From Acidobacteriota bacterium (GTDB lineage: Bacteria > Acidobacteriota > CAIWXX01), in NCBI GenBank assembly GCA_016191015.1, contig JACPPM010000163.1, forward strand, positions 1 to 44,472: 44,472 nucleotides of DNA, written 5' to 3'. Below are positions 8,695 through 34,259 of this stretch, in pieces. Within the stretch, counting starts at the first letter, position 1, and every line of letters begins with the position of its first letter. A program made the translations under genes and the position numbers. The notes under the pieces are model-generated. The model made no database searches, was not told the DNA's origin, and was given only the letters and a program-made list of their open reading frames with translations.

Positions 8695-11556
8695 ATGAAA
8701 TTCACGCTGCGGCTCCTGCTTGCCCTGGTCTCCGTGGTCTTGCTCGTGGCCGTCGCCAACGTGGTGGCCACGCGCCGGATGCTGAGGAAGCTCGAGGAGA
8801 GCCGTCTGGCGGGAGGCGAGGTCGCCTTCGCCAAGAGCATCGGGGACAAGCTCTACCGTCCCGTCGTCGAGCGCGAAACCTCGAAGATCACCGACGTTCT
8901 GTTCGACGAGCGGCGACTTCGAGAGGACGAGCTCACGTACCTTTTGGTCTTCGACGACGAGGGACGGCCGCTCGCCCACACCTTCATGGGCGAGGTGCCG
9001 AGCCGTCTCGCGAGCCTGGCGAGCCGCTTCGAAAGGGAGACACCTTTTCGAGTCGAGAGGGTAAGGACCGAGGCTCTGTTCGTCTACGATGTCGCCGTGC
9101 CGATCATGGAGGGGATCCAACAGGTCGGCTCGCTTCACGTCGGCGTCTCCGGTGACTACGTCGAGGATGCGATCCGGGCGGCATCGCGCCATTCAATGGC
9201 GATAACACTCGGTGTGACCGCTCTGGGAGTCGGTCTGGCGTTGATCGTCGCCCGCGGCGTCACGAGTCCCGTCCGAAAGCTCGCGAGGGCCACGGCGCGC
9301 GTCACGGCTGGAGACCTCGACACCACCGTCGATCTTTCAGGAAACGACGAGTTCGGACAGCTTGCACAGTCCTTTAACCGAATGGTCGAGAACGTCAAGG
9401 CGTCCAAGGTGGCGCTCGAGGCGGCCATGCGGGAGGCGGTCGCGCACCAACAGCAGCTCCGCCAACTGCTCGACAGCGAGCAGGCGCTGAAGCAGGCGTT
9501 GTCCCAGAAGCTGACCGAGGCGGAGGCGCGCGAGCAGGAGCTCGCCGAGGCTCGCCGCGCCGCTGACACGGCGAACCGCGCCAAGAGCACATTCCTGGCC
9601 AGCATGAGCCATGAGATCAGGACCCCGATGAATGCGATCATCGGCATGACCGGTTTGCTCCTCGATACGCCGTTGTCGGAGCAGCAGCGGGAGTTTGCGG
9701 AGATTGTGCGTGTGAGCGGGGATTCGCTCCTGACCATCATCAGCGAGATCCTCGACTTCTCGAAGATCGAGGCCGGACGACTCGACCTCGAGGAGCAGGC
9801 CTTCGACCTGCGTGACTGTGTCGAGTCGGCGCTCGATGTCGTCGCCGCCAGAGCCGCCGAGAAGCACCTCGAGCTTGCGTTCCTGATGGACGCGCACGTT
9901 CCGGGGCGCGTGGTGGCCGATCCCACGAGATTGCGGCAGATCCTCCTGAACTTCTTGAGCAACGCCGTGAAGTTCACGGAGCAAGGAGAGGTCGTCGTCT
10001 CGGTCACCTCACGCAGGATCGTCGATGAGTCGCCGGCCGCGCATGAGCTCACGTTCGCGGTCCGAGACACGGGAATAGGCATCGGAGAGAGTCATGTCGG
10101 AAGGCTCTTCCAGCCGTTCAGTCAAGTGGACGAGTCGATCGCTCGCAAGTATGGCGGGACCGGCCTTGGCCTCACGATCAGCAGGCGATTGGCCCAGATG
10201 ATGGGTGGGACTGCCTGGGTGGAGAGCGAGGTGCGGCGGGGTTCGACCTTCTCCTTCACCGTCCGGGTACGGGAGGCGGAAGGCACGCGGCCCGCGTGTG
10301 AAGAGCCCGAGCAGCCCCACCTGCAAGGGAAACGCATCCTGGTCGTGGACGACAATCCGACCAATCGCAAGCTTCTGTCGATTCAGACCCGGTCCTGGGG
10401 CATGGCGCCGGTCGCGGTGGAGTCCGGGCCCGCCGCACTCGACCTGATCTGCAAGGGTGAGCCATTCGACCTGGCAATCCTCGACATGCAGATGCCCGAG
10501 ATGGATGGGGTCACGCTCGCCAGGGAGATTCGGCGCCATCGGGATGCTACGGAGTTGCCGGTTGCGATGCTGACCTCGCTCGGCCGCAGGGACGGGGACG
10601 CGGACGCGATACAATTCGCGGCGTTCTTGACGAAGCCGGTCAAGGCATCGCAGCTCTACAACACCCTCGTGCGAATCTTCGCGGGAGGCTCCCATCACGC
10701 GCCGCTCCAGACCGACGCCACAGCCAACGAGGCGCGGACTGAGATCGCGGCCGAGCCCCTCCGCATTCTCCTGGCAGAGGACAACGCCATCAACCAGAAG
10801 ATGGCGATCTTGATGCTCCAGCGGATGGGCTACCGCGCCGATGTCGCCGCGAACGGACTGGAAGCGATTGACGCACTGCAGCGCCAGCCATACGACTTGG
10901 TGCTCATGGACGTGCAGATGCCCGAAATGGACGGCCTCGAGGCGACGCGGAGGATCCGTCACGAGCTTCCCGCGGATCGCCAGCCGCGCATCATCGCCAT
11001 GACGGCCAATGCCATGCAGGGGGATCGGGAGCTGTGCATCGAGGCCGGCATGGACGACTACGTGAGCAAGCCGGTAGTGGTGAACGAGCTGAGAGGCGCG
11101 ATTTCGCGATGCCGGAGCCGGTTGCTCACGCATGATACGCTCGGAACCGTTCCAGACTCCGCGTCCCCCGTCCACACTCCACCCCCGGATGCGGAACTGC
11201 CGCTGCTTGCCCTGGAGCCGGCGGCCTTCGTTCGGCTGCGGGCGACCTTGGGTGACGACGCCGACCAGGTGCTGCCAGCCCTCATCGACGAGTTTCTCCG
11301 GGAGGGGCCACGGCATCTCGGAGTGGCCAGGAGCGCCTTGGAGAAGGGAGACACCGCGGAGCTGTGCCGTGCCATGCACACGCTCAAGTCCACCAGCGCC
11401 ACGTTTGGCGCCATGAAACTCGCGGCCGTCGCCCGCGAGGTCGAGGAGGCCGCGAAGGCTGCGCAGCTCGCCGGCCTCGAGGCCATGATCGCCCGGGGCT
11501 TGATCGAATACGAGCGCGTCAAGTCCGCGCTCATCGCCCAACGGGGAACGATGTGA
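8695..11556 (+). CDS. Hybrid sensor histidine kinase: TM-sensor-TM-HAMP-HisKA-HATPase-REC-REC-HPt
   Basis: 953 residues from ATG 8695. The first transmembrane helix is at about residues 5-25. A sensor of about 140 residues ([29 protein letters not shown]) looks Cache-like. The second helix ([19 protein letters not shown]) is followed by HAMP ([20 protein letters not shown]), a coiled coil, and HisKA with His306 in [11 protein letters not shown]. The HATPase has the N box [35 protein letters not shown]. Two receivers follow with phospho-acceptors Asp597 ([11 protein letters not shown]) and Asp739 ([11 protein letters not shown]), then an HPt domain with His895 in [12 protein letters not shown]. 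It is a complete four-step phosphorelay in one chain. It lies between a periplasmic binding protein gene (19-nt gap) and a receiver-cyclase gene (4-nt overlap), which makes these its likely input and output. The open frame upstream of 8695 overlaps the binding-protein gene and is not used. Confidence 0.95.
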
Positions 11557-13088
11557 TAGAAGAGGCTGGCAGGCTGCTCGTCGTCGATGACGACGTGATC
11601 AACCGCACGCTCCTGGTCACGAACCTCAAACGACAGGGTTACCAGGTGGAGGCGGCGACAAACGGGCGCGAGGCGCTCGAACGCTTGGCGACGACGCCCA
11701 TCGATGTGGTGCTGCTCGATCTCTCGATGCCGGAGCTGGATGGGTTTCAGGTGCTCGAGATCCTCAAGAAGGACAAGGCGCGCCACCACATCCCGGTCAT
11801 CGTGGTTTCGGGTTCGGATGAGATGGACAGCGTCGTCCGCTGCATCGAGATGGGCGCGGCCGACTTCTTGCCCAAGCCATTCGATCCCACGCTCTTGCGA
11901 GCGCGCGTCACCGCCTCGCTTGCGGGCAAACGGCTCTCCGACATGGAGAGGCGCCACTTCGAGGAGACGGTCGAGCTCAACAGGCAGCTTGCGGTCCGGA
12001 ATCGGTTTATCCAGCAGACATTCGGCCGCTATCTGAGCGACGAGATCGTCTCGGCGCTGCTGGAGTCCCCGGAGGGGGCGTTACTGGGCGGCGAGATGCG
12101 TAAGGTGACGATCCTGATGGCGGACCTGAGAGGATTCACGGCGCAGACGGAACACCTGGCGCCCGAGCGCGTGGTGAAGCTGCTCAACAACTACCTGGGC
12201 TGCATGGCCGATCTGATTCTCGAGCACCGAGGCACGATCGACGAATTCATCGGCGACGCCGTGCTCGGACTCTTCGGTGCGCCCATCCGGCGCGACGATG
12301 ATGCGCGCCGCGCCGTGGCCTGTTCGCTCGCCATGCAGGCAGCCATGGAACAGGTCAACCAGACGAACCGGGAAGAGATGCTGCCCGAGGTATCGATGGG
12401 CATTGCCCTGCATACCGGGGAGGTCGTGGTCGGGAACGTCGGCTCGGTCAAACGGACCAAGTACGGCGTGGTAGGGAGCACGGTGAACCTGACGAGTCGC
12501 ATCGAGAGCTGCACGGTCGGCGGTCAGATCCTGGTCTCGGACGCGACTTTGAGAGAAGCCGGGTCCGACCTGATCGTTGGCGATCCGATGCTGATTCGGG
12601 CGAAGGGAGTCCGAGAGCTCGTCCGGATTCACGATCTGCGAGGCATTGGCGGGGAGTACGGGCTGCATCTCTCGAGGCGGGAGAGCCTGAAAGTCCCACT
12701 GGAGCGTCCTCTCAGGATCATGCTCACGCTGGTGGAGGGTAAGGTCGAGAGGGGCGAGCTGTGCGCGGGCGAGATCGTACAGATGTCGAGGGATGAGGCG
12801 CTGATCCGAACGTCGCTTCCTCTGGCGCCACTGGCCAACCTGCGAGTGCAGCTCGTGGACGTGGACGGAGACGAAGGCAAGGCGGACACCTACGGCAAGG
12901 TGCTATCGAAGGATCCGGACCACTACGATGGCTGGAACGTTCGCTACACGTCGGTCACGCCCGAGGTCGCGCGCTTCCTCTCCGAAATCGTCGAAAGCCG
13001 GGGGCGCCCGAAACTCGGGCAGCAGGGACCCCAGGGCGATGCCGATGCCACGCGGGACGAATCGCCCGCGAACCTCTGGAAAGCATGA
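11553..13088 (+). CDS. Response regulator with class III adenylate/guanylate cyclase and degenerate PilZ-like C-terminus
   Basis: 511 residues. The receiver (about 1-125) has [10 protein letters not shown], the phospho-acceptor Asp56 in [13 protein letters not shown], and Lys in FLPKPFD. A short coiled linker leads to a class III nucleotidyl cyclase domain (about 165-350). This keeps both metal-binding aspartates, Asp191 (LMADLRGFT) and Asp235 ([11 protein letters not shown]), and the VNLTSRIE motif with the transition-state Asn and Arg. The last 100 residues ([22 protein letters not shown], then YGKVLS...GWNVRYTS) resemble a PilZ-like barrel lacking the c-di-GMP motifs. The start is GTG 11553, inside the ATGTGA that ends the kinase gene: a 4-nt overlap that indicates translational coupling. 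Product cAMP is more likely than cGMP by family frequency only. Phosphotransfer from the kinase's HPt would control cyclase output. Confidence 0.92.
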
Positions 13089-14122: not shown

Positions 14123-14186
14123 ATCACCTGTTGGACCAACAATAATCCTGGCATCGAATTCGCAACGTATCCTGGCATCAGGTGAT
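14123..14186 (+). promoter_or_regulatory. Direct and inverted repeats next to the glycoside hydrolase start
   Basis: ATCCTGGCATC occurs twice with 24 bp between starts (14145-14155, 14169-14179). ATCACCTG (14123-14130) is the exact inverse of CAGGTGAT (14179-14186), which contains the AGGTG likely used as ribosome site for ATG 14191. The direct repeats could be operator half-sites. The inverted pair could hide the ribosome site in the mRNA. Both are inferences. Confidence 0.35.
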
Positions 14187-14190
14187 TGAC

Positions 14191-15594
14191 ATGAGAACCG
14201 TGGTAGGCGCCCTCATCCTTGGGCTGGGTTTGTTGCTTTTTCTGGATCACCCATCGAGGGCGGCCGGCCGGGCTAGAACCGGGAGCCTGCGCGTCTCGAC
14301 GGTTGATTCAGAAGGAGCGCAGATTGAGGCCCCGATCACAGTGAAGAGAAGAAAGAAAACGGTAGAAGAAGGCGCTGGAAGCCTTACGGTTAATCTCTCT
14401 CCAGGGATTTATAGAGTAGCTTTTGGGAATGTGACAGGTTATACCATCACGGATCCCACGACAGGGGTAAGATCGGCGCGGATAAGAGCCGGCAAGGCGA
14501 CCGAAGTGGTGGCGACATATGCCGCCGTGGGTGCGGCTCTGATTTACCACGGTGTCGCTACTCATTCCTGGAGTAGTTTCGTAACGCCGGGCTCGGGGCA
14601 GGCGGATGCCATAAGGGCTGAAGTCGACGCCTATGAGGCAGCCGCGGGCCGCACGGTTGCATGGGTGGAGTTTGGACACGAATGGGAGAACGACGGCCGC
14701 GCGTTTCCTACGCGTGTCGCCGCCTCGATAAGAAACAGGGGTGCAACTCCATTGATTTTCCTTAATCTTCGTAGTGTCGATCTGGGCCCAGATCCTGTCT
14801 ATCCTTTGGCTAAGATCATTTCCGGGAAATACGATTCCGATCTCGCCGCGTGGGCAGACGAAGCCAGAAACTTCGGATCAGAGCTCATTGTCATTTGGGG
14901 TTGGGAGATGAATGGGGATTGGGCGCCGTGGAATGGCTATTACAACGGCGGAGAAAAGGAGGGACCGAAGCGTTTCAAGGAGGCGTATCGACACATCATT
15001 GAGCTCATGAAGCGCCGCGGAGCAACCAATATTCGCTGGGGTTTCCACATCAACTTCCCGGAATACCCGAGTGAGCCTTGGAACGCCTTTGAGAACTATT
15101 ACCCGGGCGATGACGTGATTGATTGCACGGGTGTTTCCATATACGGCGCGCAGGCCCCGACTGAACCCTCGTTACCTTCATTTGTTTCAAACATGGATGC
15201 AGCTTACGCCCGACTTATGCGGATGGTGCCCGGAAAGCCCGTTTTCGTATTCGAGCTGGCCACAACGCCGACACACTCCGGCGGCGATCAAGTCGCGTGG
15301 GCTGAGGAAGCACTGGCGGGAATACTCACGGGCCGCTGGCCGGCGGTTCGTGGTTTTGCCTGGTGGAATGACTATTGGGAAAACGACAGCGATCCCGCCA
15401 ATGACACGGAAATGCGGGTTGAAGCCGTGCCCGAGCTTGCATCAGCTTTCAAGGCCTGGCTCTCAAGCGGCCAGCTCGGTGATCGCCCTCCAGTTCTTAG
15501 CTTCCCGGCCCAGACCACGACGCCTCCCCGACCAGCACGAACGGCGCCCAGTAGATCGGGCTCTCTGGGAGCGCCTTGCCGGAGGGAGTCTTGA
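14191..15594 (+). CDS. Secreted glycoside hydrolase, GH26-like (beta-mannanase/endoglucanase type), with altered C-terminus
   Basis: 467 residues. A signal peptide (MRTVVGALILGLGLLLFLDH...RAAG) is followed by a beta-rich segment of about 80 residues (GSLRVSTVDSEG) resembling a surface or carbohydrate-binding module. The catalytic barrel shows EFGHEWENDGR, the probable acid/base Glu239 in WGWEMNGDWAPWNG, and the probable nucleophile Glu355 in VFVFELATTP. Both positions match the GH26 arrangement. ATG 14191 is preferred over GTG 14182 because AGGTG lies 6 nt before it. The gene is clearly less GC-rich than its neighbours, with many AGA, AAT and TTT codons, which suggests acquisition. Residues beyond about 430 are Pro/Arg/Ser-rich and are read antisense to the 3' end of the TPR-CHAT gene, so the native stop has probably been lost. 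Substrate is not determined. Confidence 0.78.
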   Translation: MRTVVGALILGLGLLLFLDHPSRAAGRARTGSLRVSTVDSEGAQIEAPITVKRRKKTVEEGAGSLTVNLSPGIYRVAFGNVTGYTITDPTTGVRSARIRAGKATEVVATYAAVGAALIYHGVATHSWSSFVTPGSGQADAIRAEVDAYEAAAGRTVAWVEFGHEWENDGRAFPTRVAASIRNRGATPLIFLNLRSVDLGPDPVYPLAKIISGKYDSDLAAWADEARNFGSELIVIWGWEMNGDWAPWNGYYNGGEKEGPKRFKEAYRHIIELMKRRGATNIRWGFHINFPEYPSEPWNAFENYYPGDDVIDCTGVSIYGAQAPTEPSLPSFVSNMDAAYARLMRMVPGKPVFVFELATTPTHSGGDQVAWAEEALAGILTGRWPAVRGFAWWNDYWENDSDPANDTEMRVEAVPELASAFKAWLSSGQLGDRPPVLSFPAQTTTPPRPARTAPSRSGSLGAPCRRES

Positions 15595-18406
15595 TGGCTC
15601 CGCTGCGCAGCATCGTGATGATCTCCAGCTGCGCCGCACGCAAGGCTGCGGCTTTCGTGCCTCCGGGTGCGGTCAGCGCCCGATAAAACGCCTCCATCTC
15701 CGGTTGCGCCGTGATGTCGGCCACGCGCCAGAGACTCACGACGGCGCTCGGCGTGCCCGCGTACATGAACGCGCGGCTCAGGCCGATGACACCATCCCCG
15801 TTCACCTTCCCCAATCCCGTGTTGCATGCCGAGAGGACGACCAGGTCGGCGTGGAGGTTCATCGCGAATATGTCGCGGACAGTCAGGCGGCCGTCTCCAG
15901 GGAGGGAGGGGGTGAGAGCGAGGAAGCTCTCGAGCGGCATGTCGTCGCGGATGACGCCGTGCGTTGCGAAATGGATGATGCTCTGCGCCGGCATCGCGTC
16001 CTTCACGGCCCGCTCGCCCGCGCTCTCCCCCATCAGGAGTGTGACGCGGCTCTTCGAGAAATGCCTCCGCACGGCCTGAGCCTCGGCCTCAGCCCCCGGC
16101 AGCTGCGGAAGCGGCTGATCCATCCACGTGACCGGCGGCATCGTGGGGTTCCCCACAACAAGGACCCGCGCTTCGGTCCCTCGGATGACGCGCTCTTCGA
16201 TGGCCCCCGTGTATTTCAGAACGCTGATCGACGGGCTGTAGTTGATCGTATGCTCATGGATGAAGTATTCCCCATCCCCACCTGTCAGCGCAGCGAAGGA
16301 GACCAGGAACAGAGACCCGTGAGGAATGATGGTGACGAGATCCTCGGGCTTCGACGGTAGCCAGCGTGCGATCGGCGCCACCAGCAACGCGTGCAGTTTC
16401 CGGAGCACCTGCATCTGTTCTGCCGTCCCGGCTCCGCCCGTCTGCATCCGCTCCCGCATCTCACGGATAATCCTTTCCAGCTCACCCGAGCGGGCAGGTG
16501 AGTTCGCCGCGTGCACGACCCCTTCCGGGCTGACGACCCACATGAGGAGACGCGACGATGTGGAGAAATACTCTACGATCGTAGAGCGGCGTCGACGTGC
16601 CTCCTCGCGCAGCTCTTCGAGCGGAGGAGGTTGCAGGGAGGCGAGGCTCGCCAGGGTGGACAGTCCGGGATCACCTCGGCCGCTCCCCGCAGTCTCAATT
16701 TCCGTCCCGCGCAACGTGATCCCATCCTGTGGTTCCTTTGACGGGGTCGTGCTGCCGCCTGCGGATTCGACGAGAGCGCGCGAGCCCAGAAGATCCAGGA
16801 AGGCTCGTGCCCTGGCCCGCTCGGCCATCTCGAGTGCCTCCTCCGCCCTCCCGAGATCATAGAGCAGCATGATTGTGTCTCCGTAGACTCCCTGCTTGTC
16901 CTCGAGAAAGCCCGTCCGCGCTTCGTCTTCGGGCAGGACCCCCTTCCGCATCTCCTCGATGACCGCTATGCTCTCGCGAAAGAAACGCAGCGCCTCCTCC
17001 TTCATCCCGGCGTCGCGCTGGATCGTGCCCATCCGATAGCAGGCCTCCCAATGCATTTGCGGGTTCCCCGTGCGCGCGGCCTCATCGACGGCCCGCTGGC
17101 CGTAGGCCAGCGCTTTCTCCTTGTCGCCGATCCTCGCGTAGATCCTGCCGATATTGCCCGCCGCCAGGGGCAGGTAGGGAAGCTGGATCCTCTCCTGTAT
17201 CTCCATCGCTCTCATGTGGAACTGCAGAGCCGTGGTGTAGTCGCTCGCGTCATAGCAGGCGACGCCGGTCGAGTCGAGGTCGCTGGCGAGCGCGCGCCAG
17301 TCCTGAATTTCCTCCCAGATCCGATGCGCCTTCGTGCGAAAGCTCATCGCACGCGGGTGTTCGTCGAGCTTCTCATAGGCCTCGGCGATGGCAGCGAGGT
17401 CCCAGGCTTGTGCGCGTCGGTCGCCGGTCTGCTCCCGGATGGCGAGCACCCTCGTCAGGTATTCGATGGCCCGCCGGGCGTCCCCCTGACTGTTGTAGAC
17501 CATGCCGAGGTGGTAGAGAGCCGAGGCACGACCTGCGACATTGCCGCCGGACTCGGCGATCTGGAGAGAACGGCGGAAGTACGCGAGGGCCTCTTGCAGC
17601 GCACCCTGGAACCAATAGCAGATTCCGATCTCGGTGAGGATCGACCCCTGGCCAGGCCTGTCGCCGATGCTCTCCCGTGCCTGGAGCGCCCGATCGAACG
17701 CATCGACCGCTGCGGCATAGGCGTGCTGGTCCCGGTAAACGTATCCGATATCCTCCCACGATTCGGCCAACCCCCGGATGTCACCATCCTCAGTGCGCAT
17801 CGTCAGCGCGCGCCGGTGGTTCTCCAGAGCGAGCGCGTACTCACCCTGTTTGAAATGCACCAGTCCGATGTAGGTGAGGGTCGAAGCGATACCCGCGCGA
17901 TCTTCCACCGCCTCCTGCATCGCGAGCCCCTGATGGTGGAGCTCGAGTGCCCGATCGTATTGGGCCTGCATCCAATAGCCGTGGCCAATATGGGAGAGAA
18001 TACGGCCTTCCAGCCTGGGGTCTCCGACGCCCCGCGCCAGCTCCAGCGCCTTCTCCTGCCTCTCGCCCGCGATCGCGTGCTCCCCCTGACCATTGGCGAT
18101 CGTTCCCAGGAGGTCGAGACACCGGGCCTCGAGTGTGAGATCCTGGATCTCGCGACTGATCGTGAGTGCCTCATCGAGCGCTGTCGTCGCGCGAGCGTAT
18201 TCGCTGTTGGCAGCGTCCTCCTCGGCTCGGCTCAGGAGCTGCTCGGCGCGATCCCGGACTCCGCCGCTGTCAGAGGCGGCCGGGAGCACGAGAGCGGTGA
18301 AGACGGCAGCGAAGAGAAGCCGCCTGCGATGGCGCAGGTGCTGTGTGCTGGGTGTTGAGTGCCGGCCGGATGTGGACGAGCGACAGCACCCAGCACTCTT
18401 CGCCAT
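15497..18406 (-). CDS. TPR-CHAT protein (putative caspase/separase-like protease)
   Basis: 969 residues. A basic N-terminus and hydrophobic stretch (LLFAAVFTALVLPAAS, about 30-45) suggest export or membrane anchoring. Residues about 50-520 are at least ten tetratricopeptide repeats (for example GDRPGQGSILTEIGICYWFQ, ALAYFRRSLQIAES). The C-terminal CHAT domain (about 640-960) has the predicted catalytic dyad His816 in HFATHG and Cys861 in LVVLSACNTG, and ends with the typical YWAPFVLVG. CHAT proteins are caspase-superfamily proteases; relatives include the Csx29 TPR-CHAT partner of Craspase. Here no CRISPR gene is nearby. The gene is third in an operon behind an ECF sigma factor and its anti-sigma factor (54-nt gap). 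N-terminal codons 3-24 coincide with a GTGCTGGGTG/CACCCAGCAC inverted repeat. The substrate is unknown and proteolysis is inferred from the dyad. Confidence 0.9.
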   Translation of the reverse strand: MAKSAGCCRSSTSGRHSTPSTQHLRHRRRLLFAAVFTALVLPAASDSGGVRDRAEQLLSRAEEDAANSEYARATTALDEALTISREIQDLTLEARCLDLLGTIANGQGEHAIAGERQEKALELARGVGDPRLEGRILSHIGHGYWMQAQYDRALELHHQGLAMQEAVEDRAGIASTLTYIGLVHFKQGEYALALENHRRALTMRTEDGDIRGLAESWEDIGYVYRDQHAYAAAVDAFDRALQARESIGDRPGQGSILTEIGICYWFQGALQEALAYFRRSLQIAESGGNVAGRASALYHLGMVYNSQGDARRAIEYLTRVLAIREQTGDRRAQAWDLAAIAEAYEKLDEHPRAMSFRTKAHRIWEEIQDWRALASDLDSTGVACYDASDYTTALQFHMRAMEIQERIQLPYLPLAAGNIGRIYARIGDKEKALAYGQRAVDEAARTGNPQMHWEACYRMGTIQRDAGMKEEALRFFRESIAVIEEMRKGVLPEDEARTGFLEDKQGVYGDTIMLLYDLGRAEEALEMAERARARAFLDLLGSRALVESAGGSTTPSKEPQDGITLRGTEIETAGSGRGDPGLSTLASLASLQPPPLEELREEARRRRSTIVEYFSTSSRLLMWVVSPEGVVHAANSPARSGELERIIREMRERMQTGGAGTAEQMQVLRKLHALLVAPIARWLPSKPEDLVTIIPHGSLFLVSFAALTGGDGEYFIHEHTINYSPSISVLKYTGAIEERVIRGTEARVLVVGNPTMPPVTWMDQPLPQLPGAEAEAQAVRRHFSKSRVTLLMGESAGERAVKDAMPAQSIIHFATHGVIRDDMPLESFLALTPSLPGDGRLTVRDIFAMNLHADLVVLSACNTGLGKVNGDGVIGLSRAFMYAGTPSAVVSLWRVADITAQPEMEAFYRALTAPGGTKAAALRAAQLEIITMLRSGAIKTPSGKALPESPIYWAPFVLVGEASWSGPGS
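18346..18400. repeat. Inverted repeat GTGCTGGGTGTTGAGTG / CAGCACCCAGCACTC inside the TPR-CHAT 5' end
   Basis: The two arms (about 18347-18362 and 18384-18398) are approximate inverse copies. They fall within the first codons of the TPR-CHAT gene, which therefore encode a Ser/Thr/His-rich segment unlike the rest of the protein. It looks like a small palindromic repeat that entered the gene's 5' end. Confidence 0.45.
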
Positions 18407-18460
18407 TGTGTCCGCTGCCTGGTGATTCCTGAGACATGATCCGAGCCCCCGGCGGGCGGG

Positions 18461-19288
18461 TCAGTGGGCGAGATACTCGCGGATTGCCTGCCGCTGCAGT
18501 CGCGCTTCGTCGCGGTGTACCCCATCGATGCTGTCCAGCATCGCGGCCGCGGCGTCCAATTGTCCGGACTTCAGGTGGGCGAGCGCAAGGTACCATCTCG
18601 CCTCCTCCCTTTCCTCGTTCCGGCTGAGGTTGACCGCGGCCTGGAGCGGCGGGATCGCATCTACCGGTCGTCCCAGCATCAGCAGTGAGACGCCTCGGTA
18701 GAAGTGTGCCGGCGCATTCGCCGGATCTCTCGCGATCAGATCCGCGAGCTCCTTTTCCGCCTGACCATAATCGCTCGTGGTGTAGGGCTTCATGGCGGCC
18801 ACGAACGGATCCGGCCGCGACTCCTCACCACCACGCCAGATCACCTCATCCTCCGGCGCCGGCGCGTATTCTGCCTTCGCGATCTGAAGATTCAGCCAAG
18901 GGTTCCCGCGTTTCGCAGGTGTGTCCGCCTCCTGCTGGTCTCGGACCACGACGGGGGCTTCCCGTCTCAGCAAGAGAAGACCGGTCGCGGCGACGAAGAC
19001 CGCCGCGGCCGCCAGGGCGAAGAGTCGCGGAGCGTTGAGCGAGAAGCGCGGAGCGACAGTGCCCCTCTCAGCCTCGGACAGCGATTCGACGAACAGGCTC
19101 GTGTCTCGGCCAAGATCGAGACACGCGCGGCATCCGACGAGGTGCTCCCTGACCGCATCCGGGTCTTCCGATCGTCCCTGATAAAAGGCGATCAGATCGC
19201 TTTCCCGGAAGCACGTACCCGCGGGGGCCGCCGCATTTTGGCGGATCGCCTCCGCCACATACCCCTCGAGCGTCGCGTTCGCTCTCAT
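18461..19288 (-). CDS. Membrane anti-sigma factor with zinc-finger motif and TPR-like C-terminal domain
   Basis: 275 residues. The cytoplasmic N-terminus has the zf-HC2/ZAS-type motif H-x3-C-x2-C (HLVGCRAC, about residues 49-56) within an anti-sigma helix bundle. One transmembrane helix follows (LFALAAAAVFVAATGLLLL, about 88-106). The extracytoplasmic C-terminal half carries two or more TPR-like repeats (DYGQAEKELADLIARDPANAPAHFYRGVSLLMLGRPVDAI). ATG 19288 overlaps the sigma factor stop as ATGA, so the two are translationally coupled. The expected job is to hold the ECF factor at the membrane until a signal is sensed by the outer domain, possibly through contact with the TPR region of the protein encoded next. 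Confidence 0.88.
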   Translation of the reverse strand: MRANATLEGYVAEAIRQNAAAPAGTCFRESDLIAFYQGRSEDPDAVREHLVGCRACLDLGRDTSLFVESLSEAERGTVAPRFSLNAPRLFALAAAAVFVAATGLLLLRREAPVVVRDQQEADTPAKRGNPWLNLQIAKAEYAPAPEDEVIWRGGEESRPDPFVAAMKPYTTSDYGQAEKELADLIARDPANAPAHFYRGVSLLMLGRPVDAIPPLQAAVNLSRNEEREEARWYLALAHLKSGQLDAAAAMLDSIDGVHRDEARLQRQAIREYLAH

Positions 19289-19866
19289 AGACTGCCTCCA
19301 CCCTCCGGCAGCTTCCTTCCTATCGCCCGCCGGAGACTCTTCTTGGCCTGAGCCAGATGGTTGCGGACCGTGTGCACACTGAGCTGCAACGTGCGTGCGA
19401 TTTCTTCATACGCGAGCCCGTCTCGTACCCGCAGCATCAGACACTGCCTCTGCTGTGCCGGTAGCTCGGCGATCCTTCTCCAGACCTCGTCGATCAAAGC
19501 CTGATCCTCCTCCTCGCCACCCGGCGGGCTCGGGTCTCGCTCGGCATCCACCGAATCGATCGGCACTTCCGAGATCGTGCGGTGCCGCTGCTCGATCGCC
19601 GACAGCCGGACATTCCTGGCGATCGTGAACAGCCATGGCATGAACTTGCTCTCGTGCTCCAAGTGCTGCACACCCTGAAAGACCCTGGCCAGGGTATTCT
19701 GTACTAGGTCATCTGCGTCATCGGCGGGGTATCCATGCGCCCGGAAGTATCGGGCCAACCGGGGCCGCATGTTCACGTCGATCACCCTGAAAGCCATCTC
19801 GACGTCGATGGCGGCCATGGCTTGGCGCACAGCCTTCGCGAGAGCGATTTCAGAGTTTGATGGCAT
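19285..19866 (-). CDS. ECF-family RNA polymerase sigma factor
   Basis: 193 residues. Region 2 is present (RYFRAHGYPADDADDLVQNTLARVF, then FMPWLFTIARNVRLS). An acidic Pro-rich linker follows. Region 4 is a clear helix-turn-helix (LPAQQRQCLMLRVRDGLAYEEIARTLQLSVHTVRNHL). This is the usual ECF size and layout. The stop overlaps the anti-sigma start by 4 nt, and the TPR-CHAT gene lies behind both. ECF factors usually drive their own operon, so self-activation is expected. Upstream of ATG 19866 lie AAGTTTAAAGTT-type repeats and a miniature element, leaving little ordinary promoter sequence. Confidence 0.95.
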   Translation of the reverse strand: MPSNSEIALAKAVRQAMAAIDVEMAFRVIDVNMRPRLARYFRAHGYPADDADDLVQNTLARVFQGVQHLEHESKFMPWLFTIARNVRLSAIEQRHRTISEVPIDSVDAERDPSPPGGEEEDQALIDEVWRRIAELPAQQRQCLMLRVRDGLAYEEIARTLQLSVHTVRNHLAQAKKSLRRAIGRKLPEGGGSL

Positions 19867-19880
19867 CAGGTTCCTGGTCG

Positions 19881-19930
19881 GAGTTTAAGGTTTAGAGTTT
19901 CAAGTTTAAAGTTTCAAGTTTAAGGTTTCG
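19881..19930. repeat. AAGTTTAAAGTTT-type short tandem repeat
   Basis: Several imperfect copies of a 7-8 bp unit (AGTTTAA, AGTTTCA) occur in tandem about 15 bp upstream of the sigma factor start. Related arrays are at 20166-20190, 33773-33803, 33902-33930, 34150-34170 and 34240-34264. Confidence 0.7.
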
Positions 19931-19961
19931 GGCTCGAGGGTCGTATCCTGGGAGATTGCTA

Positions 19962-24711: not shown

Positions 24712-27700
24712 TCACGGCGCGCTGATCTTCAGATAGGACCACCGATACAACCGACCGAGATTCCGGTTGAGAGTGGCGGCGCGGTCCAGTGACTCGCGAG
24801 CCTTTCGAGTGGCCTCACGGCGTTCGTCCAGAGTATCGGCCGATTCCGCGCGAAGGTTGTAGAGTGCTCCGCGGACTGCGAGGACCTCGGGATAGTCAGG
24901 GTGGATCCCCAGCGCTTTTTCGCACGCGGCAAGGCCTTGGAGGACGAGGTCAGACGGACCCCGTTCCGCATGGGCACGGTGATCGTACTCGGCCCTCTGC
25001 AGAGCCATCATCGCCTGTTGACCATAGATCTGGGCGTCGTTCGGGTTCGGCTCGAGTGCCTTGTTCAGGAATTCGGCGGCTTTCGTGAACGCGGCCTCCG
25101 GTGATCGCCCTGCGCGCACCAGCGACATCCCCTCGATCACGAAGGATTCACCCATCTTCAGCCGGAAGAGCGAGTTCATGGGAGGCGAGGCGCATTCGGG
25201 CTCGAGCAGTGAGCGGGCTTCGGCGAGGGCCTTCTCGATCGGACGATCCTGGACGATCGCGGCTCGCGCCTGGAGGAGCCACGCCGTGGCGCTCGTGATC
25301 CGCCCAGGGGCGCCCTGGCGGTTGATCTCGAGCCCCTTCCGACTCGCTTCAATGGCGCGCTTCAGCGAAGCCGACGGCGCAAGCCCACGCTGGAGGTCAT
25401 ACGCGGCAATCGCTTGCTGCGATTCGCTCATGAGAAAGTACGCATCGGCATACCGCGGATTCAGGACCACTGCTCTGTCCAGGAGCCGCGTCGCTTCGCG
25501 GATCACGCCGCCCGGGTCCTGTCCTCGTTCAAGAAGAGCCGCGGCACGGATCACATGCGTTCGAGCCAGCTCAGTGTGCGAAAACAGCTCGTCCGGGGCC
25601 AGGGCCAACGCCTTCTCAAAGTTCTCGCATGCCGTCCGATACGGGACTTCAGTCGCACGACCGGTCGCCAGGCAGTATTCGGTCTCAACCCGGGAGGCGA
25701 CCGCGATCTGGTAGTATCCGACACTATCTTGTCCATCCGTCACGGTGGCTGCCGCGGCTTCGATTGCATCGTGAATGAGTGTGCGAGGGTCCCGCCCGCA
25801 GAGGTGCTCATATCGAGCTGCCAGGCGGTACAGCTTGGCCAGGCCGTTCACGGGCGTCCCCCATTTCTGGTTGATCTCGTGAGCCTTCTTCTCGCTGTCT
25901 ATGCCCAGCCGGAAGAAATCCGTGGGATCGGCGAGCCAGCCCTCGAACGCGTCGCCTGAGTAATCCGAGCACGCACTGCCGAGACTCATATAGACGCTCT
26001 CGGTGGGGCGCACCCGGATGGCTTTCTGGTAGTTACGAATCGACTTCTCCATAAGCTCCCCAGCCGGGTGGCCAGTGAAGCTCTTGTATGCTCCCCAGAT
26101 CTCATAGGTGTCGCCGAGCGATTCGTAGGCTGACGCCCGACCGGGCTCCAACTCGATCACCCTCTCGGCCATCTCCACGGCCTTTTCCAACTGTGGGACC
26201 GGGTCCTGACCACGGGCGAGCCGGTCGTCCCCCCAGAGCCAGTGGATGTTCGCCGCCAACTGGTGGATGCCCGCGTTGTCAGGATCGATTCGGGTCCCGG
26301 CCTCAGCCCAGCGTCGGGCCTCTTCGAAGGGCGCGTCTCCCCCACGCCGGCCGGTACTCAGCGTGTTCAGCCGATTCCAGTGCAAGCTGCAGATATCTAC
26401 GTAGAGGCCCGGATGACTTCGCACGATTTCGAGCGCGCTCTTATATGCTCGTTCTGCCTGCTCGTACGACTGCGACGCTGCGTCAAGGCGGCCTTGCTGC
26501 CCCTCCTCGGTTGCCCGTGACTGCAGAATTCTCCCTTCGAGCTGGTATTCCTCGTAGCGCCACAGATCCCCCGATGCCGCGGCTTGCGCCTTCCCGATGG
26601 CCTCGTCGTATCTACGTTCGTAGTAAGAGATCAGTGCCTCACCATACTCGATCGGAAGTGACGAAGCTTGCTTTCCCATCCGCAAGAATTCGATCGCAGG
26701 AGCTCGGAATCGGTTCTGGCTTTCCTGCAGTCGCCTGTCTCGCACGACGCGGTCCGTGATTCCCCGGACATCCTCGAGCTCTTGTTGGTAGAGATGTCCC
26801 ATGACCAGCCCGAGCTCATACGCGACTTCCGGCTCTCGGTAGCCCGAATCCCAGGCGGCCTGCAGATAGCCGCGGGCTCTTTCGTTCTCTTCCAGGAACC
26901 GGTAGGCTCGTCCCATCGCGAAGTTTCCGACCCCGGCTCCCGATCGGCCCGCTGCCTTCATCGCTTCCTCGATCCCTCCGATACGCTCCCGGACTATTCT
27001 CTTCTCGGCGCGAATATCATGAGGGGGCATCATGTATGCGCCACGCATGATGCTGGCGATGCCCTCGAGATTCTGCCCGAGCTGGCGGGCCAACAGCTCA
27101 CGTTTCCGAGCCTGGAACTGCATGCGGACTCCCAGCGCGAGCATGGCGATGATGATGATCAGCGCGGCTGCCACCGGGATAGCGACAAGCTTGTGCTTGC
27201 GAATCTTCTTGACCGTCCGGTAGCGCCAGGTGGTCGTGCCCCGGGCCAGGACCGGATCGCCGCCGACATAGCGACCAAGGTCTTCGGACAGCGCGCGTGC
27301 GGATTCGTAGCGTCGCTGAGGCTCCTTCTCGATGCACTTCATGATGATGTGATCGATGTCCGGTGGTGTACTGGGCTCGATCCTCCGCAACTGCGCCGGA
27401 TCGTCGTTGAGCGCCTTGAGAAGCAGGTCGGTACTGGTCTCACCTTGAAACGGGGGTCTGCCGCTGAGCAGCTCGTAGAAGGTCGCTCCGAGTCCGTAGA
27501 CGTCGGTGCGGCGGTCAAGCTTGTGGACCTGGCCGAGGATTTGCTCGGGGGCCATGTACTGGGGAGTGCCAACAGTGATGCCGGTCCGCGTGACTGTCGG
27601 CCCTTCCATGTCCCGCAAGACACCGAAGTCGAGGAGGTAGGGACGCCACGCGCCCCCTTCGATCTGCTCGACCATGATGTTGCCCGGTTTGATGTCGCGG

Positions 27701-28140
27701 TGGATGAGACCCAGTCGGTGCGCCTCATGGAGCGCGTCGGCCACCCGCTGCATGACCGCGATCTTCTGTTCCAGCGTCAGCCGGTCGCGCGCGTCGCACA
27801 ACGTCCAGCCCGCGATGTACTGCATCGCGATGAAGCGGTACCCTTCCACCTCGCCCACTTCGTATACCTTGCAGATGCTGTCATGCGCGATGCGTGCTTG
27901 TGCCTGCGCCTCGCGGATGAACCGCAACGTCTGCTCGGCCGACCCTTCTTTGATCACCTTCAACGCAACACTGCGCTTGAGCTCGGGGTCCGCAGCCTTG
28001 AACACGATCCCCATTCCGCCCTCGCCGAGAACCGCCTCGATCCTGTACCGCGTGCGCGCGTGGAACCGCGCGACGATTCCCTCGATGCGAGGATCGCCAA
28101 GGGCGGGAGAGTTGCCGTCCGTGCGCTCCTCGCTACTCAA
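24712..28140 (-). CDS. Membrane Ser/Thr protein kinase with large TPR-like C-terminal region (paralogue 1)
   Basis: 1142 residues. A PknB-type kinase domain (about 30-300) carries the Gly-rich loop LGEGGMGIVFKA, catalytic Lys61 (VALKVIK), HRD Asp149 (IHRDIKPGNIM), DFG Asp171, and the activation segment ending GTPQYMAPEQ. HRD with Arg suggests activation-loop phosphorylation. One transmembrane helix follows at about 319-338 (LVAIPVAAALIIIIAMLALG). Some 800 residues of helical TPR-like repeats then lie presumably outside the membrane (DPAQ, LEPGRASAYESLGDTYEIWG, ALEPNPNDAQIYGQQA). TTG 28140 is the first possible start because TAA precedes it in frame; GGTGGGA lies 8 nt upstream. It is very similar in the kinase half to the gene at 28662-32150. 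Its stop is 44 nt before the amine oxidase start. Targets are unknown. Confidence 0.93.
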   Translation of the reverse strand: MSSEERTDGNSPALGDPRIEGIVARFHARTRYRIEAVLGEGGMGIVFKAADPELKRSVALKVIKEGSAEQTLRFIREAQAQARIAHDSICKVYEVGEVEGYRFIAMQYIAGWTLCDARDRLTLEQKIAVMQRVADALHEAHRLGLIHRDIKPGNIMVEQIEGGAWRPYLLDFGVLRDMEGPTVTRTGITVGTPQYMAPEQILGQVHKLDRRTDVYGLGATFYELLSGRPPFQGETSTDLLLKALNDDPAQLRRIEPSTPPDIDHIIMKCIEKEPQRRYESARALSEDLGRYVGGDPVLARGTTTWRYRTVKKIRKHKLVAIPVAAALIIIIAMLALGVRMQFQARKRELLARQLGQNLEGIASIMRGAYMMPPHDIRAEKRIVRERIGGIEEAMKAAGRSGAGVGNFAMGRAYRFLEENERARGYLQAAWDSGYREPEVAYELGLVMGHLYQQELEDVRGITDRVVRDRRLQESQNRFRAPAIEFLRMGKQASSLPIEYGEALISYYERRYDEAIGKAQAAASGDLWRYEEYQLEGRILQSRATEEGQQGRLDAASQSYEQAERAYKSALEIVRSHPGLYVDICSLHWNRLNTLSTGRRGGDAPFEEARRWAEAGTRIDPDNAGIHQLAANIHWLWGDDRLARGQDPVPQLEKAVEMAERVIELEPGRASAYESLGDTYEIWGAYKSFTGHPAGELMEKSIRNYQKAIRVRPTESVYMSLGSACSDYSGDAFEGWLADPTDFFRLGIDSEKKAHEINQKWGTPVNGLAKLYRLAARYEHLCGRDPRTLIHDAIEAAAATVTDGQDSVGYYQIAVASRVETEYCLATGRATEVPYRTACENFEKALALAPDELFSHTELARTHVIRAAALLERGQDPGGVIREATRLLDRAVVLNPRYADAYFLMSESQQAIAAYDLQRGLAPSASLKRAIEASRKGLEINRQGAPGRITSATAWLLQARAAIVQDRPIEKALAEARSLLEPECASPPMNSLFRLKMGESFVIEGMSLVRAGRSPEAAFTKAAEFLNKALEPNPNDAQIYGQQAMMALQRAEYDHRAHAERGPSDLVLQGLAACEKALGIHPDYPEVLAVRGALYNLRAESADTLDERREATRKARESLDRAATLNRNLGRLYRWSYLKISAP

Positions 28141-28661: not shown

Positions 28662-31600
28662 CTACGGCTCGACTCTCCCAGGGCGAGGGATCCTCGAATA
28701 GTACGATTGGTATATCCGGGCCATATTGGGGTTCAGCCCGGCTGCCTTGGCGAGCGATTGCCGAGCCTTGCGGAACAAGTCCCCCCGGGAATCGCGCCCC
28801 GGTTCGATCTGGGCGCAGAGGCATTGCAAGGCCCCCCGAATCGCCAGCATCTCCGGCTGATCCGGATGGATCAAAAGACCGGTGTCGACGCTGCGGAGCC
28901 CGGCCTGAATGATACGCGAGACGTCAATCCCTCTTGCCGGCCGCATAAGGAATTCGGCCCAGTTCAGGTACATGATCGCCGTGACACGATGCGCGTCGGC
29001 TTGGTTGCCGTTCAGCTCGTTCGCTCGCTTCAGTGCAGCGTTCGCGGCCTCGAAGCAGGCTACCGGCGATCGGCCCAACCGGTGCTGCCAGCACCCCTCG
29101 ATCACGTACGATTCTGCCCACTTGACTACGAACCGGTGGTCCATTGGGAACGAGTCTAGCCCCTGGTGGAGCAGGGAGCGAGCCTGCCCAATCGCGGTTC
29201 CAGTCCCCGAGATCCGTGCGCGTAGCAGCCATGCTGCCGCGCCCGTCAGGAGACCGGGGGCCCCCCTCGGATTTATCGCCAGCCCATGTCGACTGTACTC
29301 CAGCGCACGCAATCCCCGCGCTTCTGGGACCAGTCCGCGCTGGAGATCCGATTCCGCGAGCAACTGCTGAGCCTCGCTCATCAGAAAATATGCGTCGGCA
29401 TAGTGTGGGTTCAGACTCACGGCGCGATCAAGGAGCTGAGCCGACGCTGAGATCGGGTCGGCCGGGCTCTCGCCACGCTCGAGCTGAGCCGATGCCCGCA
29501 AGAGGTGTGTTCGTGCGAACTCCGTGTAGGCAAAATGATAGTTAGGCCTCAGCCTAATGGCCTTATCGAAGCTTTCCACCGCGAGTCGATACGGCACCTC
29601 CAGGGCCAGACCTGCCTTCAGGCAGTATTCGGTCTCCACCTGGTATGCGGTACCCACCTGGTACCACACGTTTTCGTCCTTACCCATTCCCAGGGCGGCT
29701 GTCGCGTACTGAATCGCGCTCCGAATCGATCCACGAGGATCTCTACCGAGGAGGATCTCGTAGCGGGCCCAGTCACGATAGGTCTTCGCGAGAGTTACCA
29801 GCGGATCATACCACCTGGGACTGAGTTCATGCGCCCTTCTAAGACTTTCGACCGCAAGCTCGAATGCATCCCGCGGATCATCCAACCAGCCCTCCAAAAC
29901 CCCTTGGATCTTGTCATCGCAGACCATGCCGAGGGACTTGTAGACCACCTCCGAGGGGTCTATGCGTATGGCCTCCCGGTAGCTTTCAATGGACTTTTCC
30001 ACCAGTTCCTTCGGATCCTCACCCCTGAGTGATGCATAGGCCCCCCACACCTCATAGATGTCACCGAGCGCGACGTAGTTGGATGCCCGCCCGGGCCGCA
30101 GCGCCATTGCCTTCTTCACGGATTCGACTGCCTTGTCCAACTCGGGGACTGGATCGGCTCCCCGCATGAGTTGGGAATCCGCCCACATCCAATGGATGTT
30201 TGCTTCAATGAGGGGCAGATCACTGCTCCCGGGATCTATTCTGCCCGCCAATTCGAGGGCCTTGATTCCGTCCTCGACGGCGGCAGAGAGGTCTTTTCGG
30301 ATGCGCACCATCGTATCAATCTGAGCCTCCCGGAGTCTGCATATGTCTTCGTGAATTCCAGCATGCGCCCGGGCGATGTCCAGAGCACCCAGGTATGCCC
30401 GCTCGGCTTCTCCGTAAAGCCACATGGCATCGTCGAACCTCCCCTCTTGACTGCGGTCCCTCCCCTGAGTTTGCAAAATCCGTGCCCGGAGCCTGTACTC
30501 CTCGAACGGCCATGGGTCTCTCCGGGCGGCCACCGCCACCTTGCTGAGCGCCTCGTCCGACCTCTTCTCGTAGAATGCAATCAGGGCTTCCCCGTACTCG
30601 ATCGGCATCGTGCCGGAACCCTGTCCCTGTCGCAGATAGGCGACTGCCGGATCTCGGTACTTCTGGGCTGCTTGCTTGAGGCGCGACTCGCGCACTGATT
30701 GGTCGGTAATGCCGCGGAGGGTCGCGATCTCCTCCTGGTAGAGATGTCCCATCACGAGCCCTAATTCGTAGGAGGCCTCTGGCTCGCGATAACCGCCATC
30801 CCATGCCGTGTGTAGGTACGCTACCGCTTTCTCATAGTCCTCGAGTATCCGGTAGGCTCGTCCGAGGGCGAAGTTGCCTACTGCCTGTCCGGCCCGGCCG
30901 CTCTCGCGCATCCGGGCCTCGATCTCACGAATGCGGTCCTGAACCATCTTTTTCTCGCGTCGGATGTCGTGCGGCGGCATCATGTAGGCGCTGCGCATGA
31001 TGTTGTCGATCTCTTCGAGATCCTGCCCCAACTGGCGGGCCAACACTTCCCGGTGGCGCGCCTGAAACTGCATCCGGATGCCGACGCCGACTAGGGCCAC
31101 TATGATGACGATGGCGATCGCGACTGGGATCGCCACCATCTTGTGCTTGCGTATCCTCTTGAGGGTCCGGTACCGCCAGGTGGTGCCGCGCGCCTGCACG
31201 GGATCGCCGGCGATGTACCGCTGCAGGTCCTCGGAGAGTGCCTTGGCGGATTCGTACCGGCGTTGAGGCTCCTTCTCGATGCACTTCATGATGATGTGAT
31301 CGATGTCGAGCGGTGTACTGGGCTCGATCTTCTGAAGCGGGGCTGGATCGTCGTTGAGGGCCTTCAGGAGCAGGTCCGTGCTGGTCTCGCCGTGAAACGG
31401 GGGTGCCCCCCCGAGCAGGTCGTAGAATGTCGCACCCAATCCGTAGACATCCGTGCGCCGGTCGAGCTTCTGGATGTGGCCCAGGATCTGTTCGGGAGCC
31501 ATGTACTGCGGAGTGCCGACCGCGATGCCGGTCCGCGTGACGGCTGGTCCTTCCATGTCACGGAGGACGCCGAAGTCGAGCAGGTACGGGCGCCACGCGC

Positions 31601-32150
31601 CATCCTCGGTCTGTTCGACCATGATGTTGCCGGGCTTGATGTCGCGGTGGATGAGACCCAGGCGATGCGCCTCATGGAGTGCCTCGGCGATTCTCTGCAT
31701 CACTGAGATTTTCTCTTCGAGCGTGAGTCTTTCCCGGGCGTCGCACAGCGTCCATCCGGAAATGTACTGCATCGCTATGAACCGGTAGCCGTGTACCTCG
31801 CCGACCTCGTAGACCTTGCAAATGCTGTCGTGAGCGATGCGTGCCTGAGCCTGCGCCTCGCGCATGAAACGCACCTTCTGCTCGGTGGAGCCCTCTTTGA
31901 TGACCTTCAGCGCGACAGTGCGCCTGAGCTCAGGGTCCGTCGCCCGGAAGACAATCCCCATGCCGCCTTCGCCAAGCACGCCATCGATGACGTATCGAGT
32001 GTGCGCGTGGAACTGCTCGACGATCGGCCGCACGTTCGGACCATCGAGCGTGGACGGTGGGGGACCCGATCCGCCCTTGATGCCTGTTGTCCCTGCTGTG
32101 GTCGGGGTTCCCAGGCTGCCGGGATTCACCGCGTCCTCTCTGGTGGTCAC
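28662..32150 (-). CDS. Membrane Ser/Thr protein kinase with large TPR-like C-terminal region (paralogue 2)
   Basis: 1162 residues from GTG 32150. Layout is as in paralogue 1: a Pro/Gly-rich N-terminal tail of about 50 residues, a kinase domain with LGEGGMGIVFRA, Lys82, HRD Asp170, DFG Asp192 and GTPQYMAPEQ, a transmembrane helix at about 338-358 (VAIPVAIAIVIIVALVGVGI), and some 800 residues of helical repeats (GRASNYVALGDIYEVWGAY, LNPHYADAYFLMSEAQQ). The kinase halves of the two paralogues are nearly the same over long stretches (DVYGLGATFY, LNDDPA, IIMKCIEKEPQRRYESA), whereas the repeat halves have diverged. This points to a tandem duplication followed by change in the sensing or docking part. 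A weak GAGGAAG lies 12 nt before the start. A GCGTAGAATA promoter motif is shared with paralogue 1. Confidence 0.93.
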   Translation of the reverse strand: MTTREDAVNPGSLGTPTTAGTTGIKGGSGPPPSTLDGPNVRPIVEQFHAHTRYVIDGVLGEGGMGIVFRATDPELRRTVALKVIKEGSTEQKVRFMREAQAQARIAHDSICKVYEVGEVHGYRFIAMQYISGWTLCDARERLTLEEKISVMQRIAEALHEAHRLGLIHRDIKPGNIMVEQTEDGAWRPYLLDFGVLRDMEGPAVTRTGIAVGTPQYMAPEQILGHIQKLDRRTDVYGLGATFYDLLGGAPPFHGETSTDLLLKALNDDPAPLQKIEPSTPLDIDHIIMKCIEKEPQRRYESAKALSEDLQRYIAGDPVQARGTTWRYRTLKRIRKHKMVAIPVAIAIVIIVALVGVGIRMQFQARHREVLARQLGQDLEEIDNIMRSAYMMPPHDIRREKKMVQDRIREIEARMRESGRAGQAVGNFALGRAYRILEDYEKAVAYLHTAWDGGYREPEASYELGLVMGHLYQEEIATLRGITDQSVRESRLKQAAQKYRDPAVAYLRQGQGSGTMPIEYGEALIAFYEKRSDEALSKVAVAARRDPWPFEEYRLRARILQTQGRDRSQEGRFDDAMWLYGEAERAYLGALDIARAHAGIHEDICRLREAQIDTMVRIRKDLSAAVEDGIKALELAGRIDPGSSDLPLIEANIHWMWADSQLMRGADPVPELDKAVESVKKAMALRPGRASNYVALGDIYEVWGAYASLRGEDPKELVEKSIESYREAIRIDPSEVVYKSLGMVCDDKIQGVLEGWLDDPRDAFELAVESLRRAHELSPRWYDPLVTLAKTYRDWARYEILLGRDPRGSIRSAIQYATAALGMGKDENVWYQVGTAYQVETEYCLKAGLALEVPYRLAVESFDKAIRLRPNYHFAYTEFARTHLLRASAQLERGESPADPISASAQLLDRAVSLNPHYADAYFLMSEAQQLLAESDLQRGLVPEARGLRALEYSRHGLAINPRGAPGLLTGAAAWLLRARISGTGTAIGQARSLLHQGLDSFPMDHRFVVKWAESYVIEGCWQHRLGRSPVACFEAANAALKRANELNGNQADAHRVTAIMYLNWAEFLMRPARGIDVSRIIQAGLRSVDTGLLIHPDQPEMLAIRGALQCLCAQIEPGRDSRGDLFRKARQSLAKAAGLNPNMARIYQSYYSRIPRPGRVEP

Positions 32151-33772: not shown

Positions 33773-33803
33773 GTTTCAAGTTTAAAGTTCAAAGTTTCAA
33801 GTT
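33773..33803. repeat. AAGTTTAAAGTT-type array immediately after a stop codon
   Basis: The array begins at the first base after TGA 33770-33772 and consists of AGTTTCA/AGTTTAA/AGTTCAA units. Confidence 0.7.
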
Positions 33804-33901
33804 GCGAGGTAGGGAGTCGGGGAGCGGTTGAAGGTGTGGGGACATGCGGGAGATCCCTCGGGAACCAGTGGTGGAGGATCTATGGCGTTCGGGGGGTTGG
33901 A

Positions 33902-33930
33902 GTTCCAAGTTCAAAGTTCAAAGTTCAAAA
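33902..33930. repeat. AAGTTCAAAGTTC-type array
   Basis: Three tandem AAGTTCA units within the intergenic repeat field. Confidence 0.65.
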
Positions 33931-34100
33931 TTGCGACTAAGTCTGTCTTGGGGTCTGCGAGTGCCCGTTTCGGGTAGAGAGAGTTCCCTGCTTCGCCGGG
34001 TATCTCAGGCGATCGGCGGGTCACGACGTTTTTCCCTTCGCGCTTTCCCGAAAGGAGCACGGGAGAGCTCGCCCTCGCAGTACCCTCATTCACTCATGGG

Positions 34101-34259
34101 TGCTCCGTGGTCCACGATCGCTGTGGGTAGCGTAGCCGGCCCGGCTCCTGGAACTTTGAACTTTGAACTTCGATCTTCGAACCCGGGACTGCTCCGTGGT
34201 GCACAATGGCTGCGGCTAGCGTAGCCGGCCCGGCTCCTGGAACTTTGAACTTTAAACTT
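34101..34259. repeat. Two tandem 89-bp-period copies ending in AACTTTGAACTTT
   Basis: Copy 1 begins at 34101 and copy 2 at 34190. Over the first 70 bases most positions match, with a shared core of GTAGCCGGCCCGGCTCCTGG followed by AACTTTGAACTTT. The duplicated unit links a GC-rich segment to the AT-rich short repeat. Confidence 0.7.

Follow-up and report, generated by a model that had tools for sequence, protein, structure and literature searches.

The window (the whole 44,472-nt stretch of DNA analyzed here, contig JACPPM010000163.1 from an Acidobacteriota genome) carries on its minus strand a single three-gene operon, which encodes an ECF sigma factor, a single-pass zinc-finger anti-sigma factor, and an exported TPR-CHAT protein. 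We computed the operon, the domain content and predicted topology of its products, the recurrent linkage of the three families, the intact protease active site, and the homology of the module to both ends of the Myxococcus xanthus protein DdvA. We give a probability of about one half to the reading in which the CHAT protease, located in the periplasm, engages the anti-sigma outer domain and initiates sigma release with a first cut. This interaction, the cleavage, the signal, and the target genes (regulon) of the trio are what we infer from those data. The first-pass annotation had placed the three genes in tight succession and its coordinates agree with ours: the sigma and anti-sigma genes overlap by 4 nt (ATGA), and 54 nt separate the anti-sigma stop from the CHAT start. 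The features are summarized in Table 1.

Table 1. Features of the sigma, anti-sigma, and CHAT genes, in positions of the window
Feature	Position	Strand	Basis or remark
ECF sigma factor, 193 aa	19285..19866	(-)	Sigma70_r4_2 E 4e-16, Sigma70_r2 E 2e-10, TIGR02937 above cut-off
Membrane anti-sigma factor, 275 aa	18461..19288	(-)	zinc-finger-type N-domain, one TM helix, linker, outer TPR domain
Zinc-finger motif H49-x3-C53-x2-C56	19121..19144	(-)	invariant columns, alignment A3
Predicted TM helix, residues 87-109	18962..19030	(-)	hydropathy and AF2 helix 87-109
Arg152 codon (..VIW-R-G..), flexible outer linker	18833..18835	(-)	candidate cleavage/docking site, low confidence
Outer (periplasmic) TPR domain, residues 161-274	18467..18808	(-)	Pfam TPR_16/TPR_19; Foldseek top matches are TPR domains
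Exported TPR-CHAT caspase-like protease (predicted), 969 aa	15497..18406	(-)	CHAT E 3e-66, TPR_12 E 1e-49 (Pfam)
N-terminal export signal, residues about 29-45 (RRLLFAAVFTALVLPAAS)	18272..18322	(-)	hydropathy 2.48, RHRRR before
TPR solenoid, residues 47-548	16763..18268	(-)	AF2 secondary structure, Pfam
CHAT protease domain, residues 667-961	15524..16408	(-)	Pfam PF12770
Catalytic His816 codon	15959..15961	(-)	invariant in A4; 45/45 sigma-linked CHATs
Catalytic Cys861 codon	15824..15826	(-)	invariant in A4; 45/45 sigma-linked CHATs

The sigma protein consists of sigma-70 regions 2 and 4 (Pfam). Inspection by eye of the regions upstream of the sigma genes gave no usable sigma-promoter motif. 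Short AAACTTTGAAACTT-type repeats lie upstream of the sigma gene (19867-19945) and in two further intergenic stretches (33771-33936 and 34101-34259).

The anti-sigma N-domain scores under the Pfam threshold for zf-HC2, and its Hx3Cx2C residues (H49, C53, and C56) are kept throughout the 14 relatives of alignment A3. A profile of A3 matches solved class I anti-sigma factors, including an RslA-type protein (3hug, E 8e-7), ChrR (2q1z, 5e-5), DdvA (8rlz, E 8.2e-5), and RsiW (4e-3). With an Hx3Cx2C domain N-terminal to one TM helix, the protein belongs to class I (zinc anti-sigma domain). The AF2 model (pLDDT 83) contains one TM helix, a flexible linker (pLDDT 60-66 in blocks 141-160), and a TPR domain. 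Because the zinc-finger domain must be cytoplasmic in order to bind sigma, the C-terminus is predicted to lie outside.

As the first-pass annotation had noted, both the anti-sigma factor and the CHAT protein carry TPRs, which Pfam identifies as TPR_16 (E 5e-9) and TPR_19 (E 9e-8) in the former and TPR_12 in the latter. The annotation had also suggested that the two TPR regions might meet, and had named opposite membrane sides for them as a point against its idea. The prediction is otherwise: both are placed outside the inner membrane. As a general link, however, TPR-TPR contact was rejected, since most linked anti-sigma factors have no TPRs; TPR_16 matches 9 of the 33 CHAT-linked anti-sigma factors, and only about a third have a recognizable outer TPR domain. 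A single docking mode is unlikely because the outer domains differ in fold.

Within linker residues 141-160, Arg152 is a low-confidence candidate for the cut site, to be taken as a lead only. It is aligned in 10 of 11 TPR-class anti-sigma factors, a level reached in 0 of 300 linker shuffles but inflated by shared descent. We retained this TPR-class result alone and dropped that of a 33-row alignment, whose near-invariant Arg partly consists of Arg residues from other outer folds (FRW/LRW) that are likely structural. The dipeptide RG was also rejected as a general cleavage motif, as it showed no enrichment in CHAT-linked (20/34) over unlinked (5/12) anti-sigma factors.

The catalytic dyad of the CHAT protein, described as intact in the first reading, is indeed so: the HFATHG and SACNTG motifs are both present, and His816 and Cys861 are invariant in the 21-row CHAT alignment A4. 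The protein begins with an export signal, RHRRRLLFAAVFTALVLPAAS, and a strong N-terminal hydrophobic segment was found under a strict threshold in 75 of 101 long CHAT ORFs; those below the threshold mostly have a weaker segment or a doubtful start. The signal predicts that the protease lies outside, in the same compartment as the outer domain of the anti-sigma factor. With the AF2 model (pLDDT 87, pTM 0.84), Foldseek returned, in order, DdvA (8rw5, E 3e-18, and 8rot), Csx29, and human separase.

We considered Asp897, which is invariant and lies 36 residues past Cys861, as the counterpart of the Asp that confers P1-Arg specificity on separase, and rejected it because the alignment with Csx29 disagrees. 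Separase D2151 corresponds to Csx29 K670 (PMC9729208), and in our HMMER alignment this site is Gln901, four residues beyond Asp897 and mostly Ala in relatives. Since the specificity site falls on Gln901 and not on Asp897, P1-Arg specificity is not inferable. Some sigma-linked, exported TPR-CHAT proteins carry a PDZ domain between the signal and the TPRs, as seen at L094 (PDZ_6, E 3e-7, Pfam) and by motif at L044, L090, L107, and L108; further exported PDZ-TPR-CHAT proteins occur at L078 (Pfam, weakly) and at L088 and L091 (motif).

The nearest homologous system is DdvS/DdvA, for which structures of DdvA are available (PDB 8rot, 8rw5, and 8rlz; Bernal-Bernal et al. 2024, Sci Adv eadp1053, via PMC12288465). 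DdvA is the anti-sigma factor of DdvS, and its inactivation or loss leaves DdvS active (PMC4374960). The A3 anti-sigma profile matches residues 7-113 of 8rot (E 9.6e-5), at the N-terminus of DdvA, and the best PDB match of the CHAT profile A5 is 8rot 825-977 (E 1.7e-11), at the C-terminus, where the aligned segment has a His and a Cys in line with the catalytic dyad. Since neighboring proteins of our operon match the two ends of one chain, DdvA is a natural fusion of both families, and the window module is its split, two-gene form. The fusion supports a physical partnership between the anti-sigma family and the CHAT family. Both systems combine an ECF sigma factor, a transmembrane zinc-finger anti-sigma factor, and a TPR-CHAT outer part, which DdvA unites with the anti-sigma domain on one polypeptide whereas the window encodes them in two genes; the window anti-sigma factor differs further in carrying a separate, small TPR domain. 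The fused form was found in none of the 104 CHAT ORFs longer than 700 aa. DdvS controls an island of CBASS and type III-B CRISPR genes (PMC12288465), but no such island was seen near the window operon: the main ORFs include no cas family, the window has no CRISPR array, and the neighbors have no strong PADLOC match.

We propose that the operon encodes an envelope signaling module. In the resting state, the anti-sigma factor would span the inner membrane once, tethering the ECF sigma factor there through its zinc-finger domain and exposing its TPR domain to the periplasm. The exported, separase/caspase-like cysteine protease would engage this outer part, and its TPR solenoid may sense a signal that is passed on as protease activity. 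CHAT would then cut at site 1, in the linker that joins the membrane helix to the anti-sigma TPR domain. Next, RseP would cleave within the membrane and cytoplasmic proteases would degrade the remaining stub, which would free sigma. An RseP gene is present in the genome (E 3e-97). The 2024 DdvA authors reportedly raised autoproteolysis of DdvA before RseP cutting as a possibility. If sigma drives its own operon, a self-reinforcing loop would follow.

The linkage between CHAT and ECF sigma genes is widespread. In the window's own genome (6.43 Mb, with 12 CHAT genes and 65 sigma-70-type matches), an ECF sigma gene lies within 2.6 kb of 8 of the 12 CHAT genes, where 0.7 would be expected; this is an enrichment of about tenfold (Poisson tail P about 8e-7). 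We surveyed 60 loci from 36 genomes of the phylum, all but one (L093) picked by CHAT match with sigma ignored. Across the 35 other genomes, with L093 excluded, 31 of 68 CHAT genes have a sigma gene within 2.6 kb, and the other 37 have none. Closer than 1.3 kb to CHAT there are 16.5 sigma genes per 100 kb, and past 2.6 kb about 2. The co-occurrence across genomes that the first-pass annotation had asked about is thus strongly enriched but not universal, and the adjacency of sigma, anti-sigma, and CHAT genes is not due to chance. Neither of the two grounds for refutation that the annotation had listed was fully borne out.

The partner gene follows the same pattern. A single-TM protein is typically encoded directly after a CHAT-linked sigma factor, an arrangement far rarer for the unlinked sigma factors of the own genome (12/40). 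The trio is present in that genome as several diverged copies, and a Mantel test of these paralogs showed co-variation between sigma and CHAT (r = 0.65, P = 0.009; r = 0.31, P = 0.08 without the close copy L041). The test was restricted to the own genome because the version with all loci was confounded by species phylogeny. The 34 complete trios occur in the orders sigma-anti-CHAT (17), CHAT-sigma-anti (5), convergent (8), and divergent (4); as the linkage persists through gene-order rearrangement, a functional tie is indicated.

Relatives of the window's CHAT protein trace the limits of this linkage. A contig profile search with a three-row CHAT alignment gave 29 named relatives. The sigma-(partner)-CHAT order is shared by the Acidobacteria loci L113, L114, L120, and L136, and four more Acidobacteria loci end too close upstream to be scored for sigma. 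The cyanobacterial and Obscuribacterales relatives showed no sigma linkage, bar one doubtful, distant sigma in L128. In the CHAT tree, the window's clade contains 8 sigma-linked, 1 unlinked, and 4 unscorable members, and its cyanobacterial sister clade has 14 unlinked vs 1 linked; the source of the window is thus most likely acidobacterial on this evidence too. The linkage label changes 21 times on this tree, compared to 32 in shuffles, and supported branches force at least 12 gains or losses. Since CHAT genes without a neighboring sigma gene make up about half of those in the phylum and include the closest cyanobacterial relatives, CHAT proteins also have roles that are independent of sigma.

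Such roles lend some weight to a rather unlikely alternative, namely that CHAT is the output of the module and not its trigger. Envelope stress would then be sensed by other means, sigma would switch on the operon, and the protease would act elsewhere, in envelope remodeling, killing, or defense. Sigma-independent CHAT genes are common, CHAT, as the final gene of the operon, would share in the autoregulation of sigma, and the divergent arrangements might share a promoter region. However, the linkage also exists in the eight convergent loci, which are beyond the reach of one shared promoter, and in DdvA the TPR-CHAT part and the anti-sigma factor are one molecule.

DdvA can also be read in another way, in which CHAT would be mainly a nonproteolytic sensor or co-inhibitor that stabilizes the off-state on the anti-sigma factor, leaving the cut to another protease upon signal. 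Extended TPR solenoids typically act as binding scaffolds, and DdvA, whose outer domain is TPR-CHAT, is itself an anti-sigma factor; losing DdvA activates the cognate sigma factor (PMC4374960), which indicates that TPR-CHAT can serve the off-state. We nevertheless judge this distinctly unlikely, because both the His and Cys active-site residues are retained in 45 of 45 sigma-linked CHAT domains, an outcome that is unexpected if catalysis is irrelevant. Finally, with so many sigma-70-type matches and CHAT genes in the genome, some could have come together by chance or hitch-hiking with no functional tie, but this is very improbable given the enrichment in the own genome alone, the steep decay with distance, and the linkage in all gene orders.

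A first cut by an adjoining CHAT protease would resemble several known systems. Craspase, to which the first-pass annotation compared the operon, is an apt analogy, though DdvA is the closer relative. Csx29 cuts Csx30 and thereby relieves the inhibition of CASP-sigma (PMC10028731), so that in both cases a TPR-CHAT protease with a His-Cys dyad, a sigma inhibitor, and an ECF sigma factor are encoded at one locus, and Csx29 is among the structural matches of our CHAT model. Craspase is cytoplasmic and RNA-gated via Cas7-11, whereas the window CHAT protein has a predicted export signal, and Csx30 is not a membrane anti-sigma factor, whereas the one in the window is a TM protein. Neither Cas7-11/gRAMP nor a CRISPR array was found at the window locus. 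In the CalpL/CalpT/CalpS system of type III CRISPR, a protease cuts an anti-sigma factor and releases an ECF sigma factor (PMC11417357); CalpL is a cytosolic, cA4-gated SAVED-Lon protease whose protease fold is unrelated to CHAT.

Two further comparisons concern systems that are not associated with CRISPR. Near ECF54 genes of Actinobacteria lie CHAT, subtilase, and carboxypeptidase genes, and proteolytic control has been proposed (review, PMC8999054). ECF54 is described as having no anti-sigma factor, whereas in the window one is encoded between sigma and CHAT. One locus in our survey (L086:7992-11476) encodes a TPR-CHAT protein that lacks an export signal and whose gene overlaps the end of one for an ECF sigma factor, with no anti-sigma gene between; this locus is more like the ECF54 microsynteny. 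In the DegS/RseP-RseA-sigmaE pathway, a periplasmic protease likewise cuts a membrane anti-sigma factor to free an ECF sigma factor, and the PDZ-TPR-CHAT variants parallel the PDZ-bearing DegS. This likeness is a functional analogy only, DegS being a trypsin-like serine protease and CHAT a cysteine protease of clan CD with a different fold. We found no open paper on the acidobacterial sigma/anti-sigma/CHAT trio, which may be mentioned in other papers or in supplements.

To our knowledge, CHAT proteases are common in bacteria, with a known substrate for almost none of them. The survey offers a concrete substrate candidate, the adjoining anti-sigma factor, and suggests what purpose dozens of these proteases may serve in the cell. 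More tentatively, Acidobacteriota-type genomes may encode a large family of site-1 proteases of the caspase/separase-like type that are exported, independent of CRISPR, and each matched with an ECF sigma factor and a membrane anti-sigma factor of their own. In this doubtful but attractive scenario, DdvA would derive from the ancient module by fusion, and Csx29/Csx30/CASP-sigma would be its cytoplasmic, RNA-gated relative. The trio also offers a CRISPR-free setting in which a Craspase-type protease/anti-sigma/sigma trio could have arisen, and the diverged copies in one genome would mean orthogonal lines of envelope signaling with caspase-like proteases in charge.

Several other genes in the window and the survey stood out. 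A GH26-like glycoside hydrolase gene (window 14182-15594, plus strand) is convergent with the CHAT gene, and their 3' ends overlap by 98 nt. Two neighboring genes encode large Ser/Thr kinase-TPR proteins (window 24712-28140 and 28662-32150). A response-regulator/class III cyclase protein is encoded at window 11364-13088, where PADLOC matches to PycC most likely reflect a shared cyclase domain only. Among the surveyed loci, L042, L052, L057, L060, L065, L070, L073, and L098 encode another class of sigma partner linked to CHAT, with no zinc motif, one TM helix, often a coiled stalk, and then an outer domain that opens with a conserved LxPxxRG-like stretch. At L054, L059, and L066, the sigma gene is followed by one for an unusually large partner, a single-TM protein of 655-695 aa (TM at ~430-490), and then by CHAT.
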